Assembly (NCBI RefSeq): GCF_002160305.1
Contig: NZ_NFKI01000037.1
Span: 1-33,567 of the forward strand
Direction: 5' to 3'
DNA length: 33,567 nucleotides
Source of the DNA: Pseudoflavonifractor sp. An184
GTDB taxonomy: Bacteria > Bacillota > Clostridia > Oscillospirales > Oscillospiraceae
Shown here: positions 2,762 to 32,093 of the stretch, in pieces
Layout of the letters: every line of letters starts with the position of its first letter
Position numbering within the stretch: the first letter of the stretch is position 1
Position numbers and translations under genes: made by a program
Notes under the pieces: generated by a model
Told to the model about the DNA's origin: nothing
The model's input: only the letters and a program-made list of their open reading frames with translations
Databases searched by the model: none

Positions 2762-2805
2762 AAAGACAGCCGCCAGCGTTGCTGGCGGCTGTCTTTCTGT
2801 TTTTA
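2762..2805. terminator. Bidirectional terminator, divIVA and ancestral rnhA end
   Basis: A perfect 16-bp stem (2762-2777 with 2781-2796) has a GTT loop. A T-rich run follows on the plus side and an A-run on the other. It closes divIVA, and on the minus strand it directly follows the displaced copy of the rnhA 3' end at 2804-2875. Confidence 0.85.
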
Positions 2806-3013
2806 TTTGAATTTCCGGCTCTCGGCCACCGCCAGCTCGTCACAGCGGTTGTTATAGGGATTAGAGGCGTGGCCCGCGTCGTCGCAAGCTCCGTATCCCT
2901 CGCCCCGCCGTGTCCGGCAGGGCTCGCTCTCTCCGCTGCTCCTCCTTTCCCATTTGCACCCGCTGCGCTGGGCTGCAAATGGGGTCCCGGCTGTGGGTCA
3001 AGGGCCACTCTTC
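2804..3013 (-). mobile_element. Gene-end-duplicating element E1, after rnhA
   Basis: The real rnhA 3' end (3014-3085) is repeated at 2804-2875, exactly 210 bp away. Between the copies, on the minus strand, come a short linker, a 15-nt inverted copy (2994-3008) of rnhA codons at 3079-3093 (W-V-K-G-H), and a structured stretch. That stretch has a hairpin CCATTTGC/GCAAATGG around AGCCCAGCGCAGCGGGT, a hairpin CCCTGCC/GGCGGGG, and ends in AGCTTGCGACGACG. The five differences between the two gene ends are all silent, counting the stop change TAG/TAA. It resembles element E2 at typA in layout and scaffold. Confidence 0.75.
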
Positions 3014-3450
3014 TACTTGAACTTCCGGCTTTCCGCCACCGCCAGCTCGTCACAGCGGTTGTTATAGGGATTAGAGGCGTGGCCCTTGACCCAGTGGAGA
3101 TTGACCGTGTGGTACTCGCACAGCTCCAGAAGGCGGGCCCACAGGTCCGGGTTGAGGGCGGGCTTCTTGTCCCCCTTCACCCAGCCCCGGGCCCTCCAGC
3201 CCCTGGCCCAACCCTTCTCCAGGGCGTCAATGACGTACTTGCTGTCCGAGTACAGCTCCACCGTACAGGGCTCCTTCAGGGCCTCCAGGGCGGTGATCAC
3301 CCCGGTGAGCTCCATGCGGTTGTTGGTGGTCTGGGCCTCTCCCCCGGAGAGCTCCTTCTTGTGGGGGCCGTACATCAAAATCGCCCCCCAGCCCCCAGGG
3401 CCGGGGTTGCCCGAACAGGCCCCGTCGGTGTAGATGGTTACTGTTTTCAC
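3013..3450 (-). CDS. rnhA: Ribonuclease HI
   Basis: Cleaves the RNA strand of RNA-DNA hybrids and helps clear primers and R-loops. The 145-aa protein has the full RNase HI fold with the catalytic set D9 ([14 protein letters not shown]), E47 (NNRMELTG), D69 (YSDSKYV) and D134 (NRCDELA), plus the H124 loop HWVKGH. The GTG at 3450 has a CAGGAGA site 6 nt upstream and matches the family start KTVTIYTDG. The frame is open upstream as far as a DUF559 domain (see 3013-3939). The last codons belong to a duplicated block: this copy ends in TAG, while a silent-variant copy lies downstream at 2804-2875 beside the original terminator. Confidence 0.92.
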
Positions 3451-3939
3451 ATTGTTCTCCTGATAAAGCAGATTCTGTCCCGCCCCCTCATCCGCCCCCT
3501 TCGGGGGCACCTTCCCCCCAAGGGGAAGGTGCTTTCCTAAAGCTTCCCCTTGGGGGGAAGCTGTCGAGCGAAGCGAGACTGATGAGGGGACGTTCTGCTG
3601 TACTTTCCGATCAATGACCGAACAAACTTCCGTAAACTGATACTTGATTTCCAAATTTGTAAAACGAAGTACCTGAAACCCTCGCATCTGTTCCAGATAT
3701 TCTGTGCGTTCCACATCTGAGATGCGTCCGGAGTCTTCAAAATGCTGTCCTCCGTCCACTTCTACAACCAGCCGAGCCTCTGAGCAAAAGAAATCAACAA
3801 TATATCGGCCAATGACTTTTTGCCGCCGGAACTGAATCGGATACGTGCGCAAAAATTGATACCAAAGCAGATTTTCTTCTTCGGTCGCATTTTTCCTTAA
3901 TTTTCGAGCATATTCTTGAAGCAGAAAGTCATCGGCCAT
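3013..3939 (-). CDS. DUF559 endonuclease-like ORF, open into rnhA
   Basis: From the ATG at 3939 (GGGAG site upstream) about 115 residues match the DUF559/Vsr-like endonuclease fold: [50 protein letters not shown]. These proteins are predicted nucleases of unknown target. No stop follows the domain. The frame continues through a repeat-encoded linker ([14 protein letters not shown] ... [14 protein letters not shown]) straight into RNase HI in the same frame, which would give a 308-aa fusion. Either the original stop was lost when a short palindromic element entered, or a fusion is made in addition to RNase HI from its own GTG. I favour two proteins with accidental read-through. Confidence 0.55.
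3486..3600. repeat. Two head-to-head short palindromic elements
   Basis: Two elements of the CCTTCCCC...GGGGAAGG family lie back to back, with the CATCCGCCCCC and GATGAGGGG edges outward. They are translated as the linker of the DUF559-RNase HI frame. The same family recurs at about 3956-4065, 4437-4545, 11640-11792, 12225-12275, 14903-15120, 20300-20355 and 20490-20600. Confidence 0.7.
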
Positions 3940-4636
3940 TTGGAAACTGCTCCCTCTCATCCGCCCCAGTGTGCGCACTGGGGCTCCCTACCCCTTTTGG
4001 CTCCCTTTGGTCGCCATTTCCCCCTGACAGGGGGAATCAGCCTTCCCCCAGGGGAAGGCATTTTAACCCCAAACCCACCCGCACAAAACCGGCGTCCGGT
4101 GATAAACGTCATATGTAACCGTACCCATGTAACGATACCGGACATAAACATAACTTGGGAGTCGAACCCAACGCATGGTCCCGCGCGTTGCCAGTACTAT
4201 GTGCCGATTTGCTCCGGCACTGGGAGCGTGACGCCCGCTTTTTGTGCTACCAAAAAATCCATATTCAATTTTCAAACGCAGAGCCGGGCGGCTCCGCGTA
4301 TCTCCCCCGCGGCGCCTTCCGGAATTACGCGGCGGCGCGTCCGGGAGGCCGCGTCCTACAGAGCATCTCGCAGAGAGTGGGCGGCCCATGGGGCCGTCCC
4401 TACGGTTGAAACGGACCACCCTTATAACCGGGAGCGCTCCCCTCATCCGTCTGGCCTTTGGCCACCCCCCTTCCCCTTTTGGCCTTCAGCTATTTCCCCC
4501 TGACAGGGGGAATCGGACTTCCCCAAAGGGGAAAGCTTTACGGGCGGGTCTTGGACCCGCCCCTACGGCGGATACAAAACGGCTTCGTTTTCCTTGTAGG
4601 GGCCGGTCCCAGACCGGCCCGCCAGGATTCGCACCA
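3940..4636. repeat. Non-coding block with short repeats and cassettes
   Basis: No convincing gene. Short palindromic elements lie at about 3956-4065 and 4437-4545, and palindrome cassettes at about 4545-4625 (GGGCGGGTCTTGGACCCGCCC; GGGGCCGGTCCCAGACCGGCCC). Between them, about 4070-4400 is unique sequence of lower GC. On the minus strand it contains a tRNA-like T-arm (see findings). The frames here lack recognisable protein motifs. Confidence 0.6.
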
Positions 4637-4925
4637 GGAGCGTTGGCTCGTCAAAGCCAGGTGCAGAAATTGAACCGCACCAGCGGCAATTTTTGCACAC
4701 CCAGGGCCCAGTGGCCCGGCGGGAATTCAGACCCATCACTCAGATTTTGCGCGCCGAAAACTTTGCTGAACTTTTCAGGAGGGCGTCCCCCGTAACGGGG
4801 GACCGGGGGTAAGGCGAATATGGGCACGTTAGTGCCCATCCTGAGCCGTCCCCCGGCGATCCTTTGGTTTCTTTCCCATCGCTGGGAAAGAAACTCGCCG
4901 CCCGCAGGCGGCGAAATCCCCCTGC
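4637..4925 (+). repeat. Composite repeat R300, copy B
   Basis: Full copy. Its variable hairpins are ATGGGCACGTTAGTGCCCAT (about 4819-4838) and TTTCTTTCCCA / TGGGAAAGAAA (about 4867-4892), followed by the CGCCGCCCGCAGGCGGCG end. It stops 2-3 bp before the stop codon of the DIP1984-family gene on the other strand. Confidence 0.85.
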
Positions 4926-4927
4926 GG

Positions 4928-5386
4928 TCACCCCTCCAAAAGCTCGGTGGTCCAATTTGCCTCCTGAATTTTCTCATCCAGCTCCCGCAGCTCCTTGGAC
5001 ATCCGGTCCACCTCTTTCTGCATGGAGCGCACATCCACAGTGCTGCGGATTTTGATCTCGCCCACCGTGCGGCGGGACACCAGCTCGCTGGCGTTGTCCA
5101 GGAAGTTCCGCAGGACGCCCAGCTTGCCCTTCCGGCAGTCCCGCCGGGCCAGCAGGTCGGACAGGGGGACCCCATCCACCAGCGTGCAGCAGTTGGTGCG
5201 GTTGATGCAGGCGATCAGCGCCTCCAGCCGGGCGTAGTCCTCCTCCAGCTCCTGGAGCAGGTCCTGGGGGTCCTCGGCGGGGGACTCCCCCTCCTGGACC
5301 TGGGCGTTGTTGTACAGGCGGGTCTCCAGCTGGTGAATGCGGGTCTGGAGCTCCGCGCGCTGGGACAGAGCGTTGGCTAATTTCAT
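4928..5386 (-). CDS. DIP1984-family protein
   Basis: A 152-aa, mostly helical soluble protein that resembles the DIP1984 family (named for a Corynebacterium diphtheriae protein); its function is not established. Visible signatures are LANALSQRAELQTRI at the start, INRTNCCT and LSDLLARRD in the middle, and a C-terminal helix with MSKELRELDEKIQEANW. The ATG at 5386 follows AAGGAGA at good spacing and is chosen over the GTG at 5410, which overlaps the preceding stop. It starts 20 bp after the SHOCT protein and is probably in one transcript with it. No membrane segment or signal peptide. Confidence 0.85.
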   Translation of the reverse strand: MKLANALSQRAELQTRIHQLETRLYNNAQVQEGESPAEDPQDLLQELEEDYARLEALIACINRTNCCTLVDGVPLSDLLARRDCRKGKLGVLRNFLDNASELVSRRTVGEIKIRSTVDVRSMQKEVDRMSKELRELDEKIQEANWTTELLEG

Positions 5387-5406
5387 GGGTGTCTCCTTTC
5401 CTTCGG

Positions 5407-5808
5407 TCACAGACCCCGCAGGATCTCCTCCCGTTTTTTCTGATATTCCTCGTGGGTGATCAAACCCGCGGACTTCAGGGACTCCAGCTGTTCCAGCCGC
5501 CCCTTGGCGTCCAGGGCTGTGGAGGGGATGTGGTCGTGGGACTCCGCGGGAGCCGCCGCATCCCAGGCGGCGCTCCCCTCTTCATCTTCCTCCTCAATGT
5601 GGATCTCCGGCCCGCGGTACTTCTTGCCGAAAGACTGGTAGGCGTTCATTGCGGTGATTCCCACCGCCATGGCTGTCCACAGCAGGCCAAAGGCTCCGGC
5701 GGCAGGGACCACCACCACCAGGCCAATGAGAATAAAGACGCAGCCCCATACAATCCCAAAAATGCCCTGGGCCTTCCCCGGGCGGTAGGTAACCTTTCTC
5801 TTTCTCAT
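5407..5808 (-). CDS. SHOCT-domain membrane protein
   Basis: A 133-aa protein with two adjacent hydrophobic segments (about 15-36 and 39-55), an acidic linker (EIHIEEEDEEG) and a C-terminal SHOCT domain of about 30 residues (LEQLESLKSAGLITHEEYQKKR). SHOCT is a short oligomerisation-type domain often attached to membrane or nuclease modules; the role here is unknown. The ATG at 5808 follows GGAGAGAG. It sits between the broken SHOCT paralogue upstream and the DIP1984-family gene downstream, all on the minus strand. The C-terminal domain is clearly related to the fragment at 5834-5944, which suggests an old tandem duplication. Confidence 0.8.
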   Translation of the reverse strand: MRKRKVTYRPGKAQGIFGIVWGCVFILIGLVVVVPAAGAFGLLWTAMAVGITAMNAYQSFGKKYRGPEIHIEEEDEEGSAAWDAAAPAESHDHIPSTALDAKGRLEQLESLKSAGLITHEEYQKKREEILRGL

Positions 5809-5833
5809 CGCTCTCTCCTCCTTCCCAGTCCGG

Positions 5834-5976
5834 TCAGCGGCCGCTGAGAATCTCCTCCCGCTTGATTCGGTACTCCTCCTGGGTCACCAGACCGGCTTCC
5901 CGCAGGGAGTCCAGCTGTCTCAGACGGTCCCGGAACGTTTCCACACCGCGCGGCTGTTTTGGTCACTCTTTTTCAT
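5834..5976 (-). pseudogene. SHOCT-domain fragment, frameshifted
   Basis: From a GTG at 5944 the frame reads 36 aa with an intact SHOCT core (LRQLDSLREAGLVTQEEYR), like the end of the neighbouring gene. An ATG at 5976 starts MKKSDQNSRAVWK in another frame and would have to shift to enter the SHOCT frame. I read it as a decayed paralogue that lost its membrane part. A very small functional SHOCT protein from the GTG cannot be excluded. Confidence 0.55.
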
Positions 5977-6017
5977 CCACACGTCCTCCAGCCTATCCTA
6001 TTTGAAATATTTTGCGG

Positions 6018-8558
<2,541 letters not shown>

Positions 8559-8581
8559 AATAATCAACTCCGTTCAAGGGC

Positions 8582-8630
8582 AATTAAGAATTAAGAATTA
8601 AGAATTAAGAATTAAGAATTAAGAATTAAT
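8582..8630. repeat. AATTAAG heptad array, left flank of cassette
   Basis: Seven tandem 7-bp units of AATTAAG, the last being AATTAAT, lie between gyrA and the four-helix-bundle gene. A degenerate array in the opposite orientation lies on the other side of that gene at 9141-9175, so together they form inverted borders. Confidence 0.9.
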
Positions 8631-8693
8631 CCTTAGCCTTGAACTCTCTGCTTCTTAATTACGGTAGTGGTATATCGTAAATTTTACTTCTTT

Positions 8694-9074
8694 TTATTCT
8701 CCTGCGTCAGAATGGATGCGTTCTTTTGTACTTTTTAGAATCTGAATGAGCAGTTTTCGCAGTTCGATACAGTCCTGGTGGATGCTTGCACTCATGTCCT
8801 GGGGCAGGTATTCCGTCGCCCCTAGAAGCTCAATCCAATAGGCAGTCTCGTTTGTTTCCTTCAGGGCAATATGCAGTTTATTGATAAAATCTTTTCTGGA
8901 GGCGGCATAAACAGCCTCCCGCACATTGGCCCCAATGCTGGTTCCCGAACGGAGGATCTGCTTGGAAAGCACAAACTCTCTCTTTTCTTCCCGAAGAAAT
9001 TGAGACAGCCGCACGATCCGCACCGCAAAAGCAAAGCTCTTTCGCTCAATCGCATTCTCTCTCTGCTCCGCCAT
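8694..9074 (-). CDS. Four-helix-bundle protein (23S rRNA IVS type)
   Basis: 126-aa all-helical protein of the four-helix-bundle/S23 family. Members are encoded in the intervening sequences of some 23S rRNA genes, and the DGR accessory protein Avd is related. Signatures: SFAFAVRIVRLSQFL, LSKQILRSGTSIGANVREA, FINKLHIALKETNETAYWIELL. A basic, nucleic-acid-binding role is likely, but the exact function is unknown. The ATG follows a weak AGGTTGAG site. The gene splits gyrB from gyrA and is bounded by inverted heptad arrays (8582-8630 and 9141-9175), and its GC is clearly lower than that of the gyrase genes. Both points suggest an inserted cassette. Confidence 0.88.
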   Translation of the reverse strand: MAEQRENAIERKSFAFAVRIVRLSQFLREEKREFVLSKQILRSGTSIGANVREAVYAASRKDFINKLHIALKETNETAYWIELLGATEYLPQDMSASIHQDCIELRKLLIQILKSTKERIHSDAGE

Positions 9075-9140
9075 ATAATCTCAACCTTTCCGTCAACCAA
9101 ACAGGCCCCATCTATACGCAGAAACTCCCGTTCCCCACCC

Positions 9141-9175
9141 AATTCTTAATTCTTCATTCTTAATTCTTCATTCAA
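9141..9175. repeat. Degenerate heptad array, right flank of cassette
   Basis: Units of AATTCTT and CATTCTT alternate. They are the reverse complement of the AATTAAG-type array at 8582-8630. The array ends just before the gyrB stop codon at 9177. Confidence 0.8.
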
Positions 9176-9176
9176 A

Positions 9177-11545
<2,369 letters not shown>

Positions 11546-11559
11546 GAGGTTCCCTCCTT

Positions 11560-11591
11560 TTTTCCACATTCGACGTTGATTTTGTGGATTA
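11560..11591. promoter_or_regulatory. Two DnaA-box-like sites upstream of remB
   Basis: TTTTCCACA (11560-11568) is the same variant that is repeated in oriC, and TGTGGATTA (11583-11591) faces it. They could let DnaA act on the remB-gyrB transcript. This is inferred from sequence only, and such 9-mers also occur elsewhere in the window. Confidence 0.4.
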
Positions 11592-11857
11592 TTTTCTCTG
11601 TTGATTTCACCGCCGTCATCCTTTTCGCCTTCCCCCTGAGGGCCGACTCCCCTTGTCAAGGGGAGATGGCCGAAGGCCAGAGGGGATAGGGTCAGGTGGC
11701 CCCAAAGGTGGCGGATGAGGGGGTAATCCCCCAAAAAGCCTTCCCCCTGGGGGGAAGGTGGCACGGCGAAGCCGTGACGGATGAGGGGGCGTTTTAAGGA
11801 ACAGACATCGTTAAAAGACTCCCGTAGGGCAAGGCCATGCCCCCGCCGCCTTGTTTT

Positions 11858-12183
11858 GCAGGGTTTCGCCCTTCGGGGCGAGTTCCTTTTCCACGTGGAA
11901 AAGGAACCATAAGACGCTGGGGGACGCCGCAGGGGCGAACTTCGTTCGCCATGTCGGCTTTCCCTACCCCCTCTGGCCCTTCGGGCCATCTCCCCCTGAC
12001 AGGGGGAGTCGGCCCCCAGGCCCCCATTTACGGGGGTTATCCCTTGAGCTGGGCAAAGTATTTCCGGCGCGCAAAATTTGAGTGGGTGTCTGAATTCATC
12101 CCGGCCCACTGGGGCCTGGGTTTGCAAAAATTAGGACAGATGCGATTCCGCCGCCGCGCCTGGCATTCCCGAACCAACGCTCC
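11858..12183 (-). repeat. Composite repeat R300, copy C
   Basis: Reverse-oriented copy, with a short palindromic element (about 11955-12012) inserted between its two variable hairpins. Its long hairpin is TTCCTTTTCCACGTGGAAAAGGAA, quoted here only as arms TTCCTTTTCC/GGAAAAGGAA, and its short one is GGGCGAACTTCGTTCGCC. Confidence 0.8.
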
Positions 12184-12624
12184 TGGTCCGGTTCTCGCCG
12201 TAGGGGCGACCCTTGTGGTCGCCCGAAAGCCTTCCCCTTTAGGGGAAGGTGCCCCCGAAGGGGGCGGATGAGGTGAGCGGCCAAAGGCCGCCCGCGGGCC
12301 GGTCTGGGACCGGCCCCTACGGCGAATCTAAAACGGTTCTTGGGATTTCGTAGGGGCGGCACACTGGGCCGCCCGGAACACGGGCCGTGAACATACCCGG
12401 CTCCGACGAAAAAACGAAAGCACTTCCGGATACACCGCAGGGACAGGCGTCCTCACCCGCCCGCCGAATCCCTGAGCCGCACTTGAGCCCCACCCACGCA
12501 AAAGGCGCGCTCTCCACCAGGAGGAGCAGCACCCAAAGGTTCCCGGAAACTAAGCGGCAGCGGTCATAGAAGGGAAACCAGTCAACTGAACTACCCGCGC
12601 TTTTGCGAACACTGCCAACGCAGC

Positions 12625-12830
12625 CTAATCGGCGGTCCCCGTAAAACGGGGTCCAGAGGGACGACTCCCCTTATCAAGGGGAGATGGCCCGAAGGGCCAG
12701 AGGGGATAGGAAGGGTGAATATGGACGCGGAGCGTCCATTTTGAGTCCGCCCCTTGGCAGCTCTTTGGATACTTTCTGCCCGGGCAGAAAGTACCTCGCC
12801 CCGCAGGGCAAAATCCTCCCTCACAAAAAA
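12625..12830 (+). repeat. Composite repeat R300, copy D (3' half)
   Basis: Only the 3' modules remain: CCCCGTAAAACGGGG, a short palindromic element inserted at about 12660-12710, the variable hairpin ATGGACGCGGAGCGTCCAT (about 12719-12737) and the long hairpin TACTTTCTGCCC / GGGCAGAAAGTA (about 12770-12793). Confidence 0.75.
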
Positions 12831-13030
12831 CGGATGCCTTGCAGGGGAACATCAAAATTTCTCAATGGAACAGGACCGGGGCGGGCGGCCCAGGTGTGCC
12901 GCCCCTACGGGTAGAACGAAACGACAGGATAATCGGGACCGTTCCCCTCATCCGTCTGGCCTGGCGGCCAGCCACCTTCCCCCAGGTGGGAAGGCTTAAA
13001 AGAGAAAAAGCGGAACACCCCTGCAAAAAA

Positions 13031-13333: not shown

Positions 13334-13368
13334 AACATTCCTCCCGGAACAAACCACAGTGAGGCCAC

Positions 13369-16077: not shown

Positions 16078-16078
16078 G

Positions 16079-22860: not shown

Positions 22861-22861
22861 T

Positions 22862-23749
22862 ATGAGAAAGTGGATTGAGACCACCGGACGTTCTGAGGAA
22901 GACGCCATTGCCGCCGCCCTGTTCCAGCTGGGCCTGGACCGGGACGACGTATCCGTGGAGGTCATTGAGCGGGCCAAGTCCGGCTTCCTGGGCTTCGGCG
23001 GCAACCCCGCCAAGGTCCGGGTGAGCTACGAGGTCCCCGGCGAGGATGAGGAGCCCTCCTCCCCCGCCCCGGAGAAGGCCCCGGAGCCCGCAGCCCCCAA
23101 GGCGGAGCCTGTCCCGGAGAAGAAGGCCGAGCCCGTCTCCCCCGCCCCCCAGGCGGAGAAAAAGGCGGAGCCCGCCCCCAGAGAGGACGCCAACCGCCTG
23201 CAGCCCGGGGATGAGGTGCTCATCGGCCGGGAGGAGACCAACGCCCCCAAGGGGATGGACGGCCAGCCTCTGGAGCTGGCCCCCGCCGGCGACCCCAAGG
23301 CCGCCCGCATCCGGGAGTTCCTGGCCGGACTCATGGAGCACCTCCAGGTGGAGGCGGTCCCCGACATCTATGTGAGTGAGAACGGCTATAAGGTGATTCT
23401 CCAGGGCCGCGGCCTGGGCGCCATCATCGGCCGCCGGGGCGAGACCCTGGACGCCATCCAGCAGCTCACCAACTACGCGGTGAACCACGGCCAGTCCAAG
23501 CGGGTGCGCATCCACATCGACGCCGAGGGCTACCGGGCCAAGCGGGAGGAGTCCCTCCAGCGCCTGGCGGTGAAGGTGGCCGGCAAGGTGGTCAAGTACC
23601 GCAAGAACATGACCCTGGAGCCCATGAACGCCTATGAGCGCCACGTGATCCACGCGGCCCTCCAGGACTACCCCAACGTGACCACCTACTCCACCGGCGT
23701 GGAGCCCAACCGCCGGACGGTGGTGGCCTACGCCCCGGGGCAGAAGTAA
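22862..23749 (+). CDS. jag: Jag/KhpB RNA-binding protein
   Basis: 295-aa Jag (KhpB, EloR) protein: an N-terminal Jag_N domain (MRKWIETTGRSEEDAIAAAL, about 1-50), a Pro/Ala/Glu/Lys-rich linker of about 70 residues, a KH domain with GAIIGRRGETLDAIQ, and a C-terminal R3H domain (MNAYERHVIHAALQDY). Members bind RNA and affect cell elongation and division. The ATG at 22862 follows AAGGAAGG at good spacing and is preferred over the GTG at 22853. In many relatives mnmE, mnmG and rsmG follow; here a strong terminator and a convergent gene follow instead. Confidence 0.95.
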   Translation: MRKWIETTGRSEEDAIAAALFQLGLDRDDVSVEVIERAKSGFLGFGGNPAKVRVSYEVPGEDEEPSSPAPEKAPEPAAPKAEPVPEKKAEPVSPAPQAEKKAEPAPREDANRLQPGDEVLIGREETNAPKGMDGQPLELAPAGDPKAARIREFLAGLMEHLQVEAVPDIYVSENGYKVILQGRGLGAIIGRRGETLDAIQQLTNYAVNHGQSKRVRIHIDAEGYRAKREESLQRLAVKVAGKVVKYRKNMTLEPMNAYERHVIHAALQDYPNVTTYSTGVEPNRRTVVAYAPGQK

Positions 23750-23758
23750 AGTTTATAC

Positions 23759-23812
23759 AGACAAGCAAAAGCGGGAGGAACTCACGTTCCTCCCGCTTTT
23801 GCTTGTCAAAAA
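23759..23812. terminator. Strong terminator after jag
   Basis: A perfect 22-bp stem (GACAAGCAAAAGCGGGAGGAA and its complement) has a short TCAC loop. On the plus side it is followed by AAAAACC, on the minus side by a short run. It also marks the border of R80 copy 2, whose last bases overlap it. Confidence 0.85.
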
Positions 23813-23886
23813 CCTCTGTTGAGATGAATCCGCTCAAGTTGGGGCGGGGGAGCTCGAGGGGGCGGCAGCCCGCCTCGAGTGGAATC
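23801..23886 (-). repeat. R80 structured repeat, copy 2
   Basis: Inverted partner of 17-105. It begins 6 bp after the stop of the glycerate kinase gene on the minus strand and overlaps the jag terminator at its far end. The CTCGAGG...CCTCGAG hairpin is conserved. Confidence 0.8.
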
Positions 23887-23892
23887 GCTTTC

Positions 23893-25125
23893 TTATCGTT
23901 TGATGAGCGCCACCGCCACGTCGTTTACGTTGGTGCCGGTGGGACCGGTGCGGATAAGGCCGCCCACCCGGTCCAGGGCGTGGTAAGCGTCGTTCTCCGC
24001 CAGAACCTGGTGGATAGTGAGGCCCGCCGCCTCCAGGCGGTCCTTCGTGCTTCCGTCCACCAGGCCCCCCGCCGCGTCGGTGGGGCCGTCGGTGCCGTCG
24101 GAGCCCAGGGAGAAGATCAGGGTGTCCGCCAGTCCCGCGATCCCCTGGGCGGCGGAGAGGGCCAGTTCCTGGTTGCGGCCCCCTTTCCCCTGGCCGGTGA
24201 GGAGGACCACCGTCTCGCCTCCGGCCAGAAAGGCCAGGGATTTCTGAGTGTCCTGGTGGGTCCTGGCGATGGAGGCCAGGAAGGAGCCCGCCTCCTTGGC
24301 CTGACAGCACAGCTGGTCGGTGAGCAGGACCGGCTCATAGCCCAGCCGCCGGCAGGCCGCGCTGGCGGCGGCGCACAGCTCCCGGACGCTGCCGGTGATC
24401 ACCGTCTCCACATTGTCCAGCGCCTTGGGGGTCTCCTCTTGGAGGAGCGCCCGGGCCTGGGGCGACAGGGGGAGCCGGTACTTCTCCGCCACCGCCTGGG
24501 CCTGCGCGCAGGTGGACTGGTCCGGGTAGGCGGGGCCCGAGGCGATCATGTCCAGGGGGTCCCCCAGAATGTCGGACAGGACGATGGAGAACACCCGGGC
24601 CGGGGCGCACAGCTGGGCGAACCTCCCCCCTTTCACGGCGGACAGCCGCTTGCGGACGGTGTTCATCTCCACAATGTCCGCCCCGCAGGCCAGCATGGCC
24701 TGGGTCAGATGGGAGAGCTCCTCCGCCGGAATGAGGGGACATTCAAACAGGGCGGAGCCCCCGCCGGACACCAGGAACACCACCGTGTCCTCCGCCGTCA
24801 GATTCTCCACCAGCTCCATGGCCGCCCGGGTGCCCCGGAAGGAGTTCTCATCGGGGACCGGGTGCCCCCCCTCATAGACGGCGCACCGGGGGATCTCCCC
24901 CCGGCTGTGGCCGTGCTTGGTCACCACCACCCCGGCCTCCAGCCGGTCCCCCAGCAGCCGGGCGGCGCAGTGGGCCATCTGCCAGGCCGCCTTGCCCACG
25001 GCCACAAGAAAGACGCGGCCCGCGCCGAAGGTCCGGCCCTCCAGGGCCCGGCGCACCGCCTGGTCGGGCAGGCAGGCCGTCAGAGCCTCCTGGATGATGG
25101 TTTGCGCGTCTGTGTGGATGGACAT
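23893..25125 (-). CDS. Glycerate 2-kinase (GckA/TtuD, MOFRL family)
   Basis: 410-aa enzyme that phosphorylates D-glycerate to 2-phosphoglycerate with ATP. The family's two domains are recognisable: the N-terminal part with VAVGKAAWQMA, VVTKHGHS, VFLVSGGGSAL and EMNTVRKRLSAVKGG, then IVLSDILGDPLDMIASGP, and the C-terminal MOFRL domain with SLGSDGTDGPTDAAGG and TGPTGTNVNDVAVAL. The ATG at 25125 follows AGGGGGCG. It points towards jag and is followed at once by R80. No transporter or glycolate genes are near, so the source of the glycerate is not apparent. Confidence 0.93.
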   Translation of the reverse strand: MSIHTDAQTIIQEALTACLPDQAVRRALEGRTFGAGRVFLVAVGKAAWQMAHCAARLLGDRLEAGVVVTKHGHSRGEIPRCAVYEGGHPVPDENSFRGTRAAMELVENLTAEDTVVFLVSGGGSALFECPLIPAEELSHLTQAMLACGADIVEMNTVRKRLSAVKGGRFAQLCAPARVFSIVLSDILGDPLDMIASGPAYPDQSTCAQAQAVAEKYRLPLSPQARALLQEETPKALDNVETVITGSVRELCAAASAACRRLGYEPVLLTDQLCCQAKEAGSFLASIARTHQDTQKSLAFLAGGETVVLLTGQGKGGRNQELALSAAQGIAGLADTLIFSLGSDGTDGPTDAAGGLVDGSTKDRLEAAGLTIHQVLAENDAYHALDRVGGLIRTGPTGTNVNDVAVALIKR

Positions 25126-25340
25126 GATAGTCGCCCCCTGGAAATGGAAATCCCGGCCCTGTTCGGAGAGTGCCGGACATTGATATCATGATACCATACT
25201 GGACCGGGGTTTGGATTGTCTGCAAATCAATTTTTTGAGAGAAGCCCGATATAGGGCGGTTGTCATGGAAGCGAACCGCAGGGCCGCCAGCGCAGAATGG
25301 CCGCGCCGCGGCCTGTCAGCGGGATCAATCTGTAAAGCAA

Positions 25341-25395
25341 ACACGCTCCGCATTGCCTGTTTTTGGCGATGCGGAGCGTGTTCTTTGAATTTTTC
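25341..25395. terminator. Bidirectional terminator after typA
   Basis: A 13-bp stem (ACACGCTCCGCAT, 25341-25353, with 25369-25381) with a T-containing loop. T-rich sequence lies on both sides. It is placed between typA and the upstream region of the glycerate kinase gene. Confidence 0.7.
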
Positions 25396-25409
25396 AGGGA
25401 CAGATAAAC

Positions 25410-27239
25410 TTACCCCTTCTTCTTGGAGGCCAGCTTCATGCGCTCGCCGTGGTCCAGAACGCGCTTGCGCAGGCGTAAATTTTCCGGGGTGCACTCCAGC
25501 AGCTCGTCGTCGGCCAGGAACTCCAGGCACTGCTCCATGGACATCTGCTTGGGAGGCGTCAGGCGCAGCGCCTCGTCGGAGCCGGAGGCACGCATGTTGG
25601 TCAGCTGCTTCTTCTTGCACACGTTGACAGAGATGTCCTCCGCCTTGGGGGTCTCGCCCACGATCATGCCGGCGTACACCGGAGTGCCCGGGCCGATGAA
25701 TAGGGTGCCCCGCTCCTGGGCGTTGAAGAGGCCGTAGGTCACCGCCTCGCCGGTCTCAAAGGCCACCAGGGAGCCGGTGGAACGGCGCTGGATGTCCCCG
25801 CGCATGGGCTCATAGTGGTCAAAGACGGAGGCCATGATGCCCTCCCCCTTGGTGTCGGTCAAAAACTCGTTGCGGTAGCCGAACAGGCCCCGGGAGGGGA
25901 CCATAAACTCCAGCTTGGTGCGGTTCCCCACCGGAGTCATGTTCTGCAGGTCGGCCCGCCGGGACTGGAGCTTGTTGATGACCGCTCCGGTGTAGTCGTT
26001 GGGCACGTCGGCCACCAGCAGCTCCATGGGCTCGCACTTCTTGCCGTCGATCTCCTGGTAGAGCACCCGGGGGGGAGACACCTGGAACTCATAGCCCTCC
26101 CGGCGCATGGTCTCCATAAGGATGGACAGGGACATCTCGCCCCGGCCGGCCACGTTGAAGGAGTCGGTGGAGTTCTCCACCTCGGACACCTTCAGGGACA
26201 CGTCCTTCAGGGTCTCCCGGAACAGCCGGTCCCGGAGCTGGCGGCTGGTGACGAATTTGCCCTCCCGCCCGGCGAAGGGGGAGTCGTTGACGGAGAAGGT
26301 CATCTCGATGGTGGGGGCGGAGATCTTGACGAACTCGATGGGCTCCACGCAGTCGGGGGCGCAGATGGTGTCGCCGATGGTCACGTCGCCGATGCCGCTC
26401 ATGGCGATGATGTTGCCGGCGGTGGCCTCCTGGACGGGGACCTTGGCCAGGCCGTCGAACTCATAGAGGGCGGTGGCCTTGGCCTTCTTGGGGGCGGCGT
26501 CCGGATCGTGGTAGTTGCACACGGCGATCTCCTGGTTCTGCTTGATCACGCCACGCTCGATACGGCCGATGGCGATGCGGCCCACAAACTCGTTGTAGTC
26601 GATGGAGGAGACCAGCATCTGGAAGGGGGCGTCCACATCCGCCTCGGGGGCGGGGATATACTCCAGAATGGTGTCGAACAGGGGCTTCAAGTCGCTGCCC
26701 GCCTCGTCGGGCTGGACGGAGGCGGTGCCCTGGCGGCCGGAGCAGAACAGCATGGGGGAGTCCAGCTGCTCGTCGGTGGCGTTCAGGTCCATGAGCAGCT
26801 CCAGCACCTCGTCGATGACCTCGTACACCCGCTGGTCGGGACGGTCGATCTTGTTCACCACCACGATCACCCGGTGGCCCAGCTCCAGGGCCTTGCTCAG
26901 CACAAAGCGGGTCTGGGGCATGGGGCCCTCGGCGGCGTCCACCAGCAGGATGACGCCGTTGACCATCTTCAGGATGCGCTCCACCTCGCCGCCGAAGTCG
27001 GCGTGGCCCGGGGTGTCCACAATGTTGATTTTTACGCCGTTGTACTCCACGGCGGTGTTCTTGGCCAGGATGGTGATGCCCCGCTCCCGCTCCAGGTCGT
27101 TGGAGTCCATGACCCGCTCCACCACGGCCTGGTTCTCCCGGTACACGCCGGACTGCTTGAGCATCTGGTCCACCAGAGTGGTTTTGCCATGGTCGACGTG
27201 GGCGATAATGGCAACATTTCTCAATTTTTCGTTCCGCAT
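25410..27239 (-). CDS. typA: Translational GTPase TypA/BipA
   Basis: 609-aa GTPase of the EF-G group, active on ribosomes under stress and in 50S assembly. G1 is AHVDHGKT (13-20), G2 region RGITI, G3 DTPGH, G4 NKID; the C-terminal domain contains RGLFGYRNEFLTDTKGEG. The ATG at 27239 follows AGGAGGATTCAAGAA. A second copy of this start region, with the same Shine-Dalgarno site and 16 codons, lies upstream at 27467-27530; element E2 lies between. The translation start used now must be the downstream one, because the upstream copy soon stops. Confidence 0.97.
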   Translation of the reverse strand: MRNEKLRNVAIIAHVDHGKTTLVDQMLKQSGVYRENQAVVERVMDSNDLERERGITILAKNTAVEYNGVKINIVDTPGHADFGGEVERILKMVNGVILLVDAAEGPMPQTRFVLSKALELGHRVIVVVNKIDRPDQRVYEVIDEVLELLMDLNATDEQLDSPMLFCSGRQGTASVQPDEAGSDLKPLFDTILEYIPAPEADVDAPFQMLVSSIDYNEFVGRIAIGRIERGVIKQNQEIAVCNYHDPDAAPKKAKATALYEFDGLAKVPVQEATAGNIIAMSGIGDVTIGDTICAPDCVEPIEFVKISAPTIEMTFSVNDSPFAGREGKFVTSRQLRDRLFRETLKDVSLKVSEVENSTDSFNVAGRGEMSLSILMETMRREGYEFQVSPPRVLYQEIDGKKCEPMELLVADVPNDYTGAVINKLQSRRADLQNMTPVGNRTKLEFMVPSRGLFGYRNEFLTDTKGEGIMASVFDHYEPMRGDIQRRSTGSLVAFETGEAVTYGLFNAQERGTLFIGPGTPVYAGMIVGETPKAEDISVNVCKKKQLTNMRASGSDEALRLTPPKQMSMEQCLEFLADDELLECTPENLRLRKRVLDHGERMKLASKKKG

Positions 27240-27466
27240 TTCTTGAATCCTCCTACTGATCTATGGCAAAACCACTCGGGGCCCCATCGCAGATGGGGCG
27301 CGCCGAATGGCGCGTTTTAAAAATCCTTCTTTCTCCTGTGCGGCGGAGCCGCACCCCAAACCGAAGCCCAGCGAAGCGGGTTCGGTTTGGAGAGGAGCCG
27401 TAAGGGAGCGGGCGAGGGATGCCCACACCTGGGCGTCCCGAGCTTAAGCGGACTTTGCGGCGACGA
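27191..27466 (+). mobile_element. Gene-end-duplicating element E2, at the typA start
   Basis: The 64-bp 5' end of typA (27191-27254) is repeated at 27467-27530, 276 bp apart, with one mismatch. Between lie a linker, a 15-nt inverted copy (27263-27277) of typA codons at 27176-27190 (H-G-K-T-T of the P-loop), and at least five hairpins. One is CCAAACCG/CGGTTTGG around GCCCAGCGAAGCGGG; another is GCCCA/TGGGC. The end reads GAGCTTAAGCGGACTTTGCGGCGACGA. Layout and scaffold parts match E1 on the other strand. In element orientation E2 is antisense to typA. Confidence 0.75.
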
Positions 27467-27515
27467 GGTCGACGTGGGCGATAATGGCAACATTTCTCAA
27501 TTTCTCGTTCCGCAT
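27444..27515 (-). CDS. Truncated upstream copy of the typA start (23-codon uORF)
   Basis: From the upstream copy of the duplicated typA 5' end an ATG at 27515 with a perfect AGGAGG site gives 16 TypA residues (MRNEKLRNVAIIAHVD), then LVAAKSA and a stop. It is read from the same promoter as typA, so a leader peptide may be made before the real gene. I regard it as a by-product of the E2 insertion. Confidence 0.5.
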   Translation of the reverse strand: MRNEKLRNVAIIAHVDLVAAKSA

Positions 27516-27654
27516 TTCTTGAATCCTCCTGCAATCAATCCGAAGACACACCGGCCCGTGCAAGTTCGTCCGGACGTGCCAAAACGAAGGAATCGCTTCC
27601 ACCGGAGCGGACCGCCCCGGGGAAACATTCCCCTGAAATTCATTCAGACGGTAT

Positions 27655-27683
27655 ATTATACCGCTCTTTGGTGGGAAACGCAA
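27655..27683 (-). promoter_or_regulatory. typA promoter
   Basis: On the minus strand: TTGCGT (27683-27678), a 17-bp spacer and TATAAT (27660-27655). The transcript would start near 27648 and cross the uORF and E2 before typA. Confidence 0.7.
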
Positions 27684-27768
27684 CGAATTTGCAAAAAATC
27701 TCACACAAATTTGTCCCCTCCTTTTCCTGGCGGCTTTTGGCAGAAAAGCGGAACCCTGGGGAAATCTA

Positions 27769-27798
27769 TGTGGAAAACTCGGTGGAAAGTGTGGAAAA
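27769..27798 (+). promoter_or_regulatory. DnaA-box-like doublet
   Basis: Two TGTGGAAAA sites (27769-27777 and 27790-27798) in the same orientation, 21 bp apart, about two helical turns. It is the same 9-mer as in oriC. It stands just upstream of the LexA-box promoter. Confidence 0.45.
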
Positions 27799-27820
27799 CC
27801 GAAAACCTGTTCGACAGCTC

Positions 27821-27868
27821 TTGACAGAATCGAACATTTGTTGTATTCTTGATACGAACATACGTTTG
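27821..27868 (+). promoter_or_regulatory. SOS-type promoter with LexA boxes
   Basis: TTGACA (27821-27826), a 17-bp spacer and TATTCT (27844-27849) form a strong promoter. A near-perfect Gram-positive LexA box CGAACATACGTTTG (27855-27868) lies over the start point. A weaker one, CGAACATTTGTTGT (27831-27844), sits in the spacer. LexA bound here would block RNA polymerase, so SOS control is the plain reading. Confidence 0.75.
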
Positions 27869-27984
27869 AATTTGGCCGGGGCGCTGGAAAGTCCCAACTA
27901 TGGGACGGGCAGCCCAGTATGATACACATAACAGGCCGGTTACCGGTCAATCCGCCCGCCGGGCATTTATTGGAGGGAGAGACG

Positions 27985-28257
27985 ATGCAAACCCTGTACT
28001 ACACCACTGGAAACTTTATCCGCCACACCGGCAATGTGGTGGACCTGACCGAGTACCGCCGCCGGCTGGCTCAGGCCCAACAGGAGCCGGAGGAGGCAGG
28101 GGAAACCCGCGTCCTCCTCCCCCGGGAGAGTGTTCCCGGTCCCCGCCGGACCAGAGCCAGAAGGGCCCGCCGCCGGGCGCTGGTTCTGGACGCCTGCGCC
28201 AGCATGGGGGTGGTGGTGATGACCTTGACGTTTACCCTGCGGATGCTGGCGCTTTGA
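27985..28257 (+). CDS. Small SOS-type membrane protein, family unknown
   Basis: 90-aa protein with a polar N-terminal half (MQTLYYTTGNFIRHTGN, then VVDLTEYRRRLA), a basic middle stretch (RTRARRARRRA) and one C-terminal hydrophobic segment (about 68-88). The ATG at 27985 follows GGAGGGAGAG. I do not recognise the family. The promoter carries LexA boxes, and a terminator directly follows. A small, single-pass, SOS-controlled protein recalls division inhibitors such as YneA or SidA by context only; no sequence link to them is seen, and no LysM domain. Confidence 0.8.
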   Translation: MQTLYYTTGNFIRHTGNVVDLTEYRRRLAQAQQEPEEAGETRVLLPRESVPGPRRTRARRARRRALVLDACASMGVVVMTLTFTLRMLAL

Positions 28258-28276
28258 ATTTTGAGTCTGAAATAAG

Positions 28277-28326
28277 AGCGCTATGCAGAGTAATTAACCT
28301 TTCTGCATAGCGCTTTCTCTTATTTT
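28277..28326 (+). terminator. Terminator of the SOS-type gene
   Basis: A perfect 13-bp stem AGCGCTATGCAGA (28277-28289) with TCTGCATAGCGCT (28302-28314), followed by TTCTCTTATTTT. Confidence 0.85.
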
Positions 28327-28401
28327 GGAGGGTTGCCGCCCCCGGGGAATTCTCCTCTCCCCGGTTGGGAAGGCTGCGCCCAATGGGGCGCAGGGCGTAC
28401 C

Positions 28402-29640
28402 TCAAAGTCCTGGCGGCAGATCGGCGCTGACCACCTGCCAGCCCCGGGGATAGTAGTTCAGGGTGATGGTGCACAGGCTGCTCTGGCCCCCGGCCTCCGC
28501 CTGGACCTGGAATGTGATCCGGTCCCCCTCCCGGCCGACCAGGGTCACCTCCTGAATGTCACAGCCGCTGTAATAGTTCAGCACAGCTTGGCGGGCGTTT
28601 TCCTCTGTGTCCTGAGGCGGCAGCTGGTCCAGATAGACGGGCAGGAAGCCCCGGGAGAGAATAGCCACCTGCCCCTCCTCCGACCGCAGCCAGCGGGTCA
28701 GGACCCGGGCCGGGTGGTCCTCCGGCAGGTCCGCCCGGGTGACGGCGTAGTAGCCGCCGGTCAGGGGGTAGCTCCCTTCCGAAATGGTCTGAGCGGTGGC
28801 GGGCACCCCCTCGTAGTCCAGAATCTTCAGGGAGGAGGCGATGCCGGTGATCTCGTCCATGTTCTGAAGGTAGGTAAACAGGGTATACCCCAGGGCATAG
28901 CTGTCGCTGGGCTGGCCGAACATCCCGCCGGTGTGGTAAAAGGCGGTCTGCTCCAGCATCCCCTCCATGGTCAGCTCCACATAGTTCTCCTGGATGGAGG
29001 GGTCCATGGGCTCCCCCTTCAAAATCAGGTTGTCCAGCTGGGACTGGCTTCCGCTGTCGGCGTTGCGGCAGATGGGCACCAGCGCCCGGTCCGGTCCCCC
29101 CAGCTCCGTCCAGCTGGCGATGCCGTTGTGCAGATAGATGTCCCGCACCTGGTCCCCGGTGATGTTGGCGGCGGTGTTCTCCACCGGAGTGATGAAGATC
29201 AGAGCCTCGGCGGCCACTTGAGCAAGTTCCAGCTCCACCCCCGCCTCCTTGGCCTGGCTCAGCACATCGGCGGATGGAGAGGGGGCCAGAATCAGGTCCA
29301 GATCTCCGGCGATGAGCTTCTCATAGGAGGGCACCGTCTTGGAGGCCTCCCAGGGGTAGCCCTCCTCATCCATGGACTCCGGGCCGAACACCGCCTCATA
29401 GGCGGCCTGGACGATGCCCAGAGTGGAGGTGGAGCCGTCCACCCGGGGGTAATTTTTCTCCGTCACCCCCAGCTTCTCCAGGTCCAGGCCGGACTCTATG
29501 GGGGCTGTCTCCGGGCCGGCCTCAGGGCTCCCGCCTGGATTCCCCTCCGCCCCGCTGGAGGCGGAGCCCGCCGGGGCGGCGCAGGCGGAGAGCAGCAGGC
29601 CGGACAAGAGCAGACAGACGGCCGGTTTCCACAATTTCAT
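28402..29640 (-). CDS. PstS-like substrate-binding lipoprotein
   Basis: 412-aa extracellular lipoprotein: a basic and hydrophobic signal (MKLWKPAVCLLLSGLLL) with lipobox LSAC and Cys20, then a Gly/Ser/Pro-rich spacer (about 24-45), then a type-2 periplasmic-binding fold of the phosphate-binding (PstS) kind: DGSTST (the S/T-rich ligand loop), LIFITPVENTAANIT, ADSGSQSQLDN, and GGYYAVTRADLP. The ligand need not be phosphate; no pst transporter genes are near. The ATG at 29640 follows GAGGAGGG. Longer upstream frames lack a signal peptide. Downstream is convergent with the SOS-type gene. Confidence 0.85.
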   Translation of the reverse strand: MKLWKPAVCLLLSGLLLSACAAPAGSASSGAEGNPGGSPEAGPETAPIESGLDLEKLGVTEKNYPRVDGSTSTLGIVQAAYEAVFGPESMDEEGYPWEASKTVPSYEKLIAGDLDLILAPSPSADVLSQAKEAGVELELAQVAAEALIFITPVENTAANITGDQVRDIYLHNGIASWTELGGPDRALVPICRNADSGSQSQLDNLILKGEPMDPSIQENYVELTMEGMLEQTAFYHTGGMFGQPSDSYALGYTLFTYLQNMDEITGIASSLKILDYEGVPATAQTISEGSYPLTGGYYAVTRADLPEDHPARVLTRWLRSEEGQVAILSRGFLPVYLDQLPPQDTEENARQAVLNYYSGCDIQEVTLVGREGDRITFQVQAEAGGQSSLCTITLNYYPRGWQVVSADLPPGL

Positions 29641-29725
29641 AGCGGGTCCCTCCTCTATATTTTTTGTATCTCTATGATAGCACATTTTCCCGGAAAAAAC
29701 AGGACCAAATCTCCACATCCAGCTC

Positions 29726-29754
29726 TTGACAGGTGGAAAAATGTATATTACAAT
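29726..29754 (+). promoter_or_regulatory. Promoter of the T-box/glyS transcript
   Basis: TTGACA (29726-29731), a 17-bp spacer and TACAAT (29749-29754), with T-box RNA starting a few bases later. Close to consensus. Confidence 0.8.
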
Positions 29755-29760
29755 GGGGTG

Positions 29761-29996
29761 CAAATCCGAAAGCGACGACAGAGAACAGTACCCCGGGCCG
29801 GGAATATCAGAGATGGGATGGCCGGTGCGAATCCCACGAAGGCGCGGCGGGAAGGCCCTCTGGAGCGCGGGCAGGCAATGGCCCGCCGTCTCCCCACGTT
29901 ACGGGGGTCGAGTGTGTACCTCTGGTACAAATTCAGGTGGAACCACGGATCGTTTGATTCGCCCTGAGCCTTTTCCGGCTCGGGGCGTTTTTATTT
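29761..29996 (+). promoter_or_regulatory. T-box riboswitch leader, probably tRNA-Gly
   Basis: The T-box core AGGTGGAACCACGG (29935-29948) is followed by a terminator (CGCCCTGAGCC / GGCTCGGGGCG and a T-run, 29960-29995). Upstream are stem I signatures: AGAGAACAGTA, AGAGATGGGAT and GGTGCGAATCCC, and linker hairpins GCGGGC/GCCCGC and TGTACC/GGTACA. Uncharged tRNA would stabilise the antiterminator. A GGC triplet (AAGGCG) lies in the expected part of stem I, which fits glycine and the next gene glyS, but I cannot fix the specifier loop by eye. Confidence 0.85.
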
Positions 29997-30459
29997 GGAC
30001 GGAGGCTGTGCCCTGCAGGCAACGTGGAGCATGGGAGAACAGGCGGCTGCAAGGATCGCCCCTACGGCAACACATACACCGGATCGTTGGCTCTACAACG
30101 CCAGGCGCAGCAGTTGAACCGCACCAGGAATAAATTTTGCAAACCCAGGGCCCAGTGGCCCGGCGGGAATTTAGATGCTCACTCAGATTTTGCGCGCCGG
30201 AGCTTCCGCTCCAACCAACCAGGAGCGCGTCCCCCGTAATGGGGTCCGGGGTGGGCGAATATGGGCACGTAAGTGCCCATCCTGAGCTCACCCCGGGGGC
30301 GTTTTGGTTCCTTTGCCGCCATGGGCAAAGGAACTCGCCGCCCGCAGGCGGCGAAACTCCCCCGCGCAAAACGAACTAATTCCAAACCCTGCTTCCCCCT
30401 CTTGGAAATGTATATCAATCAAAAAACCATCCAATGCTAGGAATAAAAGGAGTTTTATC
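29997..30459. repeat. Spacer between T-box terminator and glyS
   Basis: No gene. It holds part of a palindrome cassette (about 30040-30065), composite copy G (30081-30366) and the glyS leader. The 94 bp before glyS hold a Shine-Dalgarno site, and no clear second promoter is visible. Confidence 0.75.
30081..30366 (+). repeat. Composite repeat R300, copy G
   Basis: Full copy in the glyS leader. Short hairpin ATGGGCACGTAAGTGCCCAT (about 30261-30280), long hairpin TTCCTTTGCC / GGCAAAGGAA (about 30308-30333), then CGCCGCCCGCAGGCGGCG. Modules GGGCCCAGTGGCCC and TTTTGCGCGCCGG are clear. Confidence 0.87.
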
Positions 30460-31881
30460 ATGAAAAACAGCGAAAAGACCATGGAAAAAATCGTAAACCT
30501 GTGTAAGGGCCGGGGCTTCATCTTCGCCGGGTCCGAGATCTACGGCGGCCTGGCCAACACCTGGGACTACGGCCCCCTGGGTGTGGAGCTGAAGAACAAC
30601 GTGAAGAAGGCCTGGTGGAAGAAGTTCGTCCAGGAGAACCCCTACAATGTGGGTCTGGACGCGGCCATCCTGATGAATCCCCAGGTGTGGGTGGCCTCCG
30701 GCCATGTGGGCGGCTTCTCCGACCCGCTGATGGACTGCAAGGAGTGCAAGGAGCGCTTCCGCGCCGACAAGGTCATCGAGGACTGGTGCCAGGAGAACAA
30801 TTTCGAGCTGGGCCACAGTGTGGACGCCATGACCCAGGCCCAGATGAAGGAGTTCGTGGAGGAGCACAACATCCCCTGCCCCACCTGCGGCAAGCACAAC
30901 TGGACCGACATCCGCCAGTTCAACCTGATGTTCAAGACCTTCCAGGGCGTCACCGAGGACGCCAAGAACACCGTCTACCTGCGCCCCGAGACCGCCCAGG
31001 GCATCTTTGTCAACTTCCAGAACGTCCAGCGCACCACCCGGAGAAAACTGCCCTTCGGCGTGTGCCAGATCGGCAAGTCCTTCCGCAACGAGATCACCCC
31101 GGGCAACTTCACCTTCCGCACCCGGGAGTTTGAGCAGATGGAGCTGGAGTTCTTCTGCACCCCCGGCACTGAGCTGGACTGGTTCGCCTACTGGAAGGAC
31201 TTCTGCCACAAGTGGCTGCTGAACCTGGGCATGCGGGACGAGAACCTGCGTCTCCGCGACCACGACCCGGAGGAGCTCTCCCACTACTCCAACGCCACCA
31301 CCGACTTTGAGTTCGTCTTCCCCTTCGGCTGGGGCGAGCTGTGGGGCGTGGCCTCCCGCACCAACTTCGACCTGACCGCCCACCAGAACACCTCCGGCAA
31401 GGACATGACCTACTTCGACCAGGAGAAGAACGAGCACTATATCCCCTACGTCATCGAGCCCTCCCTGGGCGCCGACCGCGTCACCCTGGCCTTCCTGGTG
31501 GACGCCTACGACGAGGAGGTGGTGGACGAGGCCAAGAACGACGTGCGCACCGTCCTGCGCCTCCACCCCGCTCTGGCCCCCTTCAAGTGCGCCATCCTGC
31601 CCCTGTCCAAGAAGCTGGGCGACAAGGCCCGGGAGATCCAGACCGAGCTGTCCAAGTATTTCATGGTGGACTACGACGACGCCGGCTCCATCGGCAAGCG
31701 CTACCGCCGCCAGGATGAGATCGGCACCCCCTACTGCATCACCGTGGACTTCGAGACCGTGGGCGACGACAAGACCCCCGCGGACAACGCCGTCACCATC
31801 CGGGACCGGGATACCATGGAGCAGGTACGAGTGCCCATTTCTGAGCTGAAGGCCTGGCTGGAGGAGAAGCTGGCTTATTAA
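30460..31881 (+). CDS. glyS: Glycyl-tRNA synthetase, single-chain type
   Basis: 473-aa class II GlyRS of the homodimeric (archaeal/eukaryal-like) type, which charges tRNA-Gly. Two CxxC pairs ([21 protein letters not shown]) suggest a metal knuckle. Motif 2 is [19 protein letters not shown]; the C-terminal anticodon-binding domain starts near [12 protein letters not shown]. The ATG at 30460 follows AAAAGGAG. Expression is probably set by the T-box leader at 29761. The last codons ([13 protein letters not shown] to LAY) are duplicated downstream at 32033-32093 around element E3. The active copy ends GCT TAT TAA, the displaced copy GCC TAC TGA. Confidence 0.96.
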
Positions 31882-32093
31882 GAAAAAGTTTTCCCCCTGC
31901 TCCATGCCCGCCGCACAGCGGCGGAAACCGAGCATTTTGGCGCAGCCAAAATCTCGCCGGAGGGCGGATTCACTCCGCCCGAGGATTTAAAATCGGCCTT
32001 GGGGCCCCACAAACGCCTGCGTTTGTGGGAGCGCAGGTACGAGTGCCCATTTCTGAGCTGAAGGCCTGGCTGGAGGAGAAGCTGGCCTACTGA
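31882..32093 (+). mobile_element. Gene-end-duplicating element E3, after glyS
   Basis: The glyS 3' end (31821-31881) is repeated at 32033-32093, offset 212 bp; the differences are three, all silent, counting TAA/TGA. Between lie a linker, an 11-nt inverted copy (31896-31906) of glyS 31815-31825 (CATGGAGCAGG), and hairpins CCGCCGC/GCGGCGG, CATTTTGG/CCAAAAT, GGGCGGA/TCCGCCC and CCCACAAACGC/GCGTTTGTGGG. Layout equals E1 and E2, though the scaffold is only weakly similar. Confidence 0.7.

Follow-up and report, generated by a model that had tools for sequence, protein, structure and literature searches.

In a stretch of 33,567 nucleotides from Pseudoflavonifractor sp. An184 (Oscillospiraceae; contig NZ_NFKI01000037.1), hereafter the window, the genes rnhA, typA and glyS each carry at one edge a short non-coding insert of the same layout, which we call a gene-edge element. 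Read in element orientation, conserved codons of the gene (X) are followed by the rest of the gene edge (D1), a linker, the reverse complement of X (X'), a hairpin-rich body and a second copy of the gene edge (D2), which starts inside X or just after it, at a point designated c, and continues into the native flank. This order had been proposed for the three genes in an original prediction made from the letters of the window, and it has now been found in 43 distinct cases in genomes of the Oscillospiraceae. We tentatively regard gene-edge elements as short structured repeats without open reading frames, each lineage of which would be directed in a homing-like manner to the edge of one conserved gene, with X' as its address; we give this reading a probability somewhat below one half (about 0.45). 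The interpretation offered with the original prediction is, on the whole, partly supported.

A recurring architecture at gene edges

The full order is present at all three window loci. At rnhA the two D copies are 75 nt long and 93% identical, and X and X' match perfectly over 15 nt at a distance of 70 nt; the corresponding values are 64 nt, 98%, 15 nt and 72 nt for typA and 57 nt, 98%, 11 nt and 70 nt for glyS (Table 1). X falls on conserved codons each time, as had been predicted, and each gene is kept intact by its inner edge copy D1. The nine D1/D2 coding differences in the window are indeed all silent or stop-for-stop: five are silent in rnhA, three in glyS and one in typA, with none nonsilent in rnhA and glyS. 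Downstream of X' the bodies measure 118 (rnhA), 189 (typA) and 126 nt (glyS), which is too short to encode the nuclease or reverse transcriptase that the prediction had likewise found lacking inside. The scan that returned three full patterns from the real window returned none from 30 dinucleotide shuffles of it (1,007,010 bases).

Further cases, which the prediction had named as a check, were found both in the same genome and in relatives (cited below by G numbers), at genes including smc, ftsY, infB, uvrB, lepA, leuS and asnS; names other than rnhA, typA and glyS are our presumption from the protein ends and not from annotation. At least 10 perfect X–X' pairs were required, and because the 43 cases came partly from gene-directed searches (rnhA, typA, glyS, smc-ftsY), gene frequencies among them are biased. 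In An184, scanning the window and about 397 kb of further stretches, on contigs picked for known body matches though the scan itself used no body sequence, added smc, ftsY, infB and asnS. Pgk-like and dGTPase-like gene edges in this genome adjoin body matches, and the edge of an FAD-protein gene at a contig end has X and X' without a second edge. In the relative G160, 18 stretches of 20 kb yielded the architecture at lepA, an OmpR-type regulator, one unnamed gene and smc, all four within the five stretches that sat at known body or smc matches and none in the other 13. It was also present in 25 of 30 loci (L309-L338) taken from matches to a covariance model of the B-type body; the model derives from bodies that themselves show the architecture, and the 25 include five that served to train it or represent the same allele as such a body (ftsY of An184 and G157, typA of G159, lepA of G160, glyS of G198). 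Among 21 model matches in stretches of An184 and G160, 10 lay inside the architecture and 7 outside, several of the latter beside tRNA genes; one had X and X' with no second edge found (L290:12423), two were in a rearranged tandem and one was at a contig end.

Tandem arrays of D-X'-body units occur at asnS and elsewhere (L080:19510-19980, L295, L079, L032) and look as if an element had entered one site twice or slipped. Longer, coding versions with a second edge up to 15 kb away were absent from the loci examined. Plasmids gave no match to the glyS element, the only query used there, and phages none to the rnhA element, again the only query; viral contigs searched by pattern gave two and one matching stretches, none with the architecture.

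Across the 43 cases X is 10-19 nt long, and in every case it is coding and the insert is directed outward from the gene. The gap between X and X' is 65-75 nt in 39 of the 43. From c to X' there are 72-83 nt in 34 cases (full range 46-111 nt), and in 24 cases c is found 4-6 nt into X; a pgk-like case with a gap of 32 fell under the cut-off for D. Inserts occupy 38 3' ends and five 5' ends, after three script labels had been corrected by eye (L199 belongs with the 5' edges, L315 and L328 with the 3' edges). Of the 38 cases at 3' edges, 27 have an X' that starts no more than 10 nt beyond the stop codon, and in the others it starts up to 39 nt beyond; for the uncorrected count of 27 of 37, p is 2e-15 against a uniform spread over 0-75. 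At smc of G160 (L260/L300) the entry point c is that of other species, but the 19-nt X and X' are shifted upstream by about 20 nt and X' provides the stop codon, which suggests a second event at an already occupied site.

Table 1. Parts of the three gene-edge elements in the window
Feature	Position	Strand	Basis
rnhA X, WVKGH codons	3079..3093	-	
rnhA D1, inner copy of the gene edge, stop codon included	3011..3085	-	
rnhA X', reverse complement of X	2994..3008	-	
rnhA body, A type: central hairpin and A module with GACGAC end	2876..2993	-	
rnhA D2, outer gene edge	2801..2875	-	
typA X, antisense of HGKTT codons	27176..27190	+	
typA D1, start codon and ribosome-binding site	27191..27254	+	
typA linker L	27255..27262	+	
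typA X'	27263..27277	+	
typA body, start of B module joined to end of A module	27278..27466	+	
typA D2	27467..27530	+	
glyS X, MEQV codons	31815..31825	+	
glyS D1	31821..31877	+	
Final glyS D1 bases with stop codon, then linker L	31878..31895	+	
glyS X'	31896..31906	+	
glyS body, B type	31907..32032	+	model R1 match 31892-32030, 99.5 bits; one of the model's 11 sequences
glyS D2, then downstream hairpin	32033..32089	+	

The window also holds other dispersed repeats of about 270-350 bp that are 79-81% alike (1657-2003/15135-15460, 4632-4922/30077-30363 and 12013-12279/20087-20357).

Bodies, lineages and empty alleles

In full-length bodies a GGGGNCCCC hairpin links the 5' module, B, to the 3' module, A, which ends in GACGAC/G; B-only, A-only and joined forms are all found within the architecture. 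Bodies of the 43 cases are 76-237 nt long and contain no gene. Eleven B bodies share 22 consensus pairs, 12 of which have two-sided changes, that is, covariation in the stems. The covariance model proposed along with the original prediction was built and run, but from 11 B-type bodies (model R1, glyS being the sole one from the window) and not from the elements E1 and E2 as suggested; with 55 candidates scored per genome, it finds at least 54 copies in An184, and 34 of the 61 genomes in the genus have matches. The window gave no match in Rfam 15 at the gathering threshold. The typA element had none at E up to 5, and only weak, unrelated sub-gathering matches were obtained for rnhA (two miRNAs, best E 0.028, over X-D1-X') and glyS (snoRNA, istR and HOTAIR, best E 0.28); a known structured RNA family, such as HEARO/IscB RNA or a group II intron, was rejected since none of the three window elements had a credible match. 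A B-body variant with a GGCCTTCTGGCC-like start is found in pairs near tRNA-like sequences, without X-D-X', at C75:27.8k, C75:132.9-133.3k and C97:73.2-73.8k of An184 (L062, L067, L072).

The bodies form gene-specific lineages. For 29 of 33 eligible bodies the closest relative sat at the corresponding gene of a different genome, against a mean of 3.7 and a maximum of 12 in 2000 label shuffles, and none had it at a different gene of its own genome (0 of 18); copies have thus not lately jumped between genes. The element family of the original prediction is real, repeated and represented by many cases, but it is divided into lineages that have lately each kept to their gene. An intragenomic transposon or miniature inverted-repeat transposable element (MITE), whose copies within one genome should be most alike, was rejected on the 0 of 18. 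Random jumping fits less well than homing to specific genes, or than long-resident copies whose likeness is maintained by recombination. D2 is nearer to its own D1 than to the D2 of any other species in 28 of 30 cases, and X' follows the local X where genomes differ in it (typA, lepA and two other genes); in many lineages, D and X' are thus being renewed by some process at their old addresses. A counter-example is smc of G204, where X' fits the usual codons and mismatches the local ones, and in other typA leaders X' is imperfect, with 10-13 of 14 positions paired.

Empty alleles, in which gene, stop codon and downstream region follow in direct sequence, had been named as a check and are common in relatives at glyS, typA, smc and ftsY. 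They also bear on the proposal that D2 is the ancestral end. At ftsY this holds: the close relatives G193 and G159 are both empty, the G193 edge differs from D2 of An184 at 2 of 48 positions and from D1 at 8, the G159 edge at 5 and 11, and 75-nt windows of the gene further upstream are 84-100% identical to those of either relative, so that D2 is native and D1 is not. D2 is not clearly ancestral at typA of An184, where the lone D1/D2 difference makes D1 match the empty G193. D1 of G193 glyS is the same over 51 of 51 nt as the edge in G170, another species, where the allele is empty; the D2 of this G193 gene represents a different allele. These comparisons indicate that D1 and D2 differ in origin at ftsY and at G193 glyS. 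In glyS of An184, D1 shares D2-type sequence that is absent from D1 of G193 and G159, a sign of conversion.

In the 37 cases scripted as 3' ends, D1 and D2 differ by 144 silent and 44 nonsilent changes, a count that takes in L199 (0:3, wrong frame) and leaves out L315 and L328 (2:0 each); the silent share expected if D2 were free is 0.365 and that observed is 144/188 (p 4e-29). Four 5' edges have 16 silent differences and one nonsilent. The differences are mostly silent at both kinds of edge. For the greater part of its history, D2 seems to have served as a functional end of the gene.

Possible routes of entry

Under the homing-like reading, each lineage would re-enter alleles of its own gene that are element-free, with X' as the address, complementary to the conserved codons around c. 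After entry D1 would complete the gene by supplying the stop codon or start region, X' and the body would follow directly, and the native edge of the recipient would remain outside as D2. The guide may be X' in the form of RNA or of single-stranded DNA, the body serving as its scaffold; entry may be ongoing, would depend on an enzyme acting in trans and would be completed by recombination or repair. A guiding role of X' is plausible. Recurrent entry into element-free alleles would explain the orientation, the position relative to the stop codon, the gene-specific lineages and the codon constraint on D2, which random insertion would not. A more specific mechanism, in which a transcript of X' and body guides a cellular or borrowed nuclease to the same conserved codons in empty alleles and repair installs the element with a rebuilt edge, is doubtful.

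Several observations weigh against homing-like entry. No enzyme was found for the element in searches for RVT_1 and Y1/RAYT, nuclease genes (IscB/TnpB/Cas9) not having been searched genome-wide. No strong column (top 0.43 bits) emerged when 22 target sites were aligned at c and at the start of X, which gives no sign of a flanking motif. The gap between X and X' is 35, 38 and 107 in cases at leuS and 98 at a tsaD-like gene, and neither edge copy is clearly native at smc of An184. D1 and linker duplicate the native site at the OmpR-type gene of G160 (80 nt, one difference) and at rnhA of G091 (77 nt, exact or nearly so), as target-site duplication would also explain. Body identity is not above upstream coding identity in 41 of 48 same-gene pairs, as plain vertical descent gives. 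A carried guide would not always follow the local X as X' does, though the scan itself demands at least 10 perfect pairs and smc of G204 does show a mismatch. At typA of G165 X and X' pair perfectly (14/14) despite a decayed D2.

A listing of reverse transcriptase-like genes in genomes with elements had been proposed as a check. An184 has three RVT_1 reverse transcriptases and G160 five, but PF00078 (RVT_1) had no match in G159, G193, G201, G157, G204, G167, G173, G039, G184 and G189, each with 11-44 B bodies; several of these ten are incomplete, and G159, G039 and G184 are 98-99% complete. Four to eight matches each were found in G154, G169, G200, G194 and G197, all with no bodies. A presently RVT_1-driven retroelement using target-primed insertion was rejected since the presence of reverse transcriptases does not fit the body counts; past activity is conceivable. 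The same reason removed a Y1/RAYT transposase as the machine: one RAYT query (E 1e-5) had no match in G177 (18 bodies, 87% complete), G189 (15, 76%), G190 (13, 94%) and G192 (12, 95%). In An184, RAYT-type Y1 transposase genes lie behind what we take to be smc, uvrB and hisS (L254:2436-2990, L307, L308), and palindromes tagged with GTAG, of a different kind from the element, occur near the one at hisS.

A less probable alternative is a one-time insertion with a target-site duplication of about 72-83 nt, in which X' would be the snap-back copy of a 3' overhang folded on X, followed by descent, conversion between D1 and D2, and loss by D1 x D2 recombination. The spacing of about 78 nt from c to X' in the 34 cases agrees with it, as do the linker within the duplicates of G160 and G091, the sign of conversion in glyS of An184, and body identity that tracks gene identity (41/48). 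However, random insertion predicts X outside genes, opposite orientations and X' spread 0-75 nt past the stop codon, none of which is seen, and random target-site-duplication insertion was dropped given the geometry and orientation of the 43 cases and the nearest-body lineages. The glyS D2 of An184, G193 and G159 (L224, L225, L226) also differ, by reading, at silent positions only, though behind a stop codon, and copies are not most like others of the same genome.

It is improbable that the element is a cis-acting leader or trailer, kept by selection because pairing of X and X' in the mRNA regulates the gene, with mobility long past. The way X' follows changes in X at the four genes and the complete pairing in G165 would suit such a role, but D2, its mostly silent divergence, the tandem arrays and the empty sister alleles are left unexplained, and pairing would have to work in both 3' and 5' untranslated regions. 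An intron-like RNA, with the segment from c to the body end spliced out and D2 used as the coding end, would account for the coding behaviour of D2, the pairing of X' across the would-be 5' junction and the structured bodies, but is highly improbable, as at 5' edges (typA, lepA, era) the transcript has the opposite strand of the body with D2 equally constrained (16:1), and no Rfam intron family matches.

Relation to known systems

To our knowledge the pattern fits no known element, and the portions of the open-access literature that were searched do not describe the architecture. We place the gene-edge element in no known class, because tests for defining features of reverse transcriptase-driven retroelements, REP/RAYT systems, known structured RNAs and MITE-like transposition all came out negative. 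By analogy, its working may partly resemble that of homing elements or of islands that restore gene ends, and the order of X' and body looks like that of a guide and its scaffold.

Integrative elements that restore gene 3' ends include e14 and phage 21 in icd. They share with the gene-edge element one element-borne and one native edge, mostly silent differences and an intact gene, but have a tyrosine recombinase and kilobases of DNA in place of a body of 76-237 nt with no gene and an antisense X' 65-75 nt from X in 39 of 43 cases. Homing endonucleases and mobile introns, as we understand them, likewise have conserved target codons, gene-specific lineages and empty alleles; here, in contrast, no endonuclease or splicing activity is seen and the target X is intact in the occupied allele. 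The guide RNAs of IscB/OMEGA and CRISPR systems, again as we understand them, resemble the element in that a complementary stretch of 10-19 nt immediately precedes a conserved, structured body, with c at 4-6 nt from the body-side end of the stretch in 24 of 43 cases, whereas here there is no credible Rfam match and no flanking motif.

We know of no long edge duplication described for repetitive extragenic palindromes (REPs), REPINs or bacterial interspersed mosaic elements (BIMEs). These sequences, with their RAYT transposases (PMC3733652, PMC2817692), are also hairpin-rich repeats in gene borders, and the GACGAC/G end of module A resembles a CGTC tag. They differ in that several element-rich genomes here have no RAYT match, and the GTAG-tagged palindromes near a RAYT gene are of another kind. 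MITEs, such as MITEAba12 (PMC6382973), are likewise short, non-coding and dispersed; the gene-edge element, in contrast, has no fixed terminal inverted repeats, its X' mirrors the host gene and its c-to-X' distance is 46-111 nt.

Even the plainer reading as one-time duplication gives dozens of natural events that combine a duplication of about 78 nt with a templated inverted copy, the mechanism of which is directly testable. If homing-like entry is true, a non-coding element that sits at the edges of conserved genes, does the gene no harm, is met with at identical codons in different species and bears an antisense address would represent a new survival route for selfish DNA in compact bacterial genomes, and possibly a new principle of insertion.

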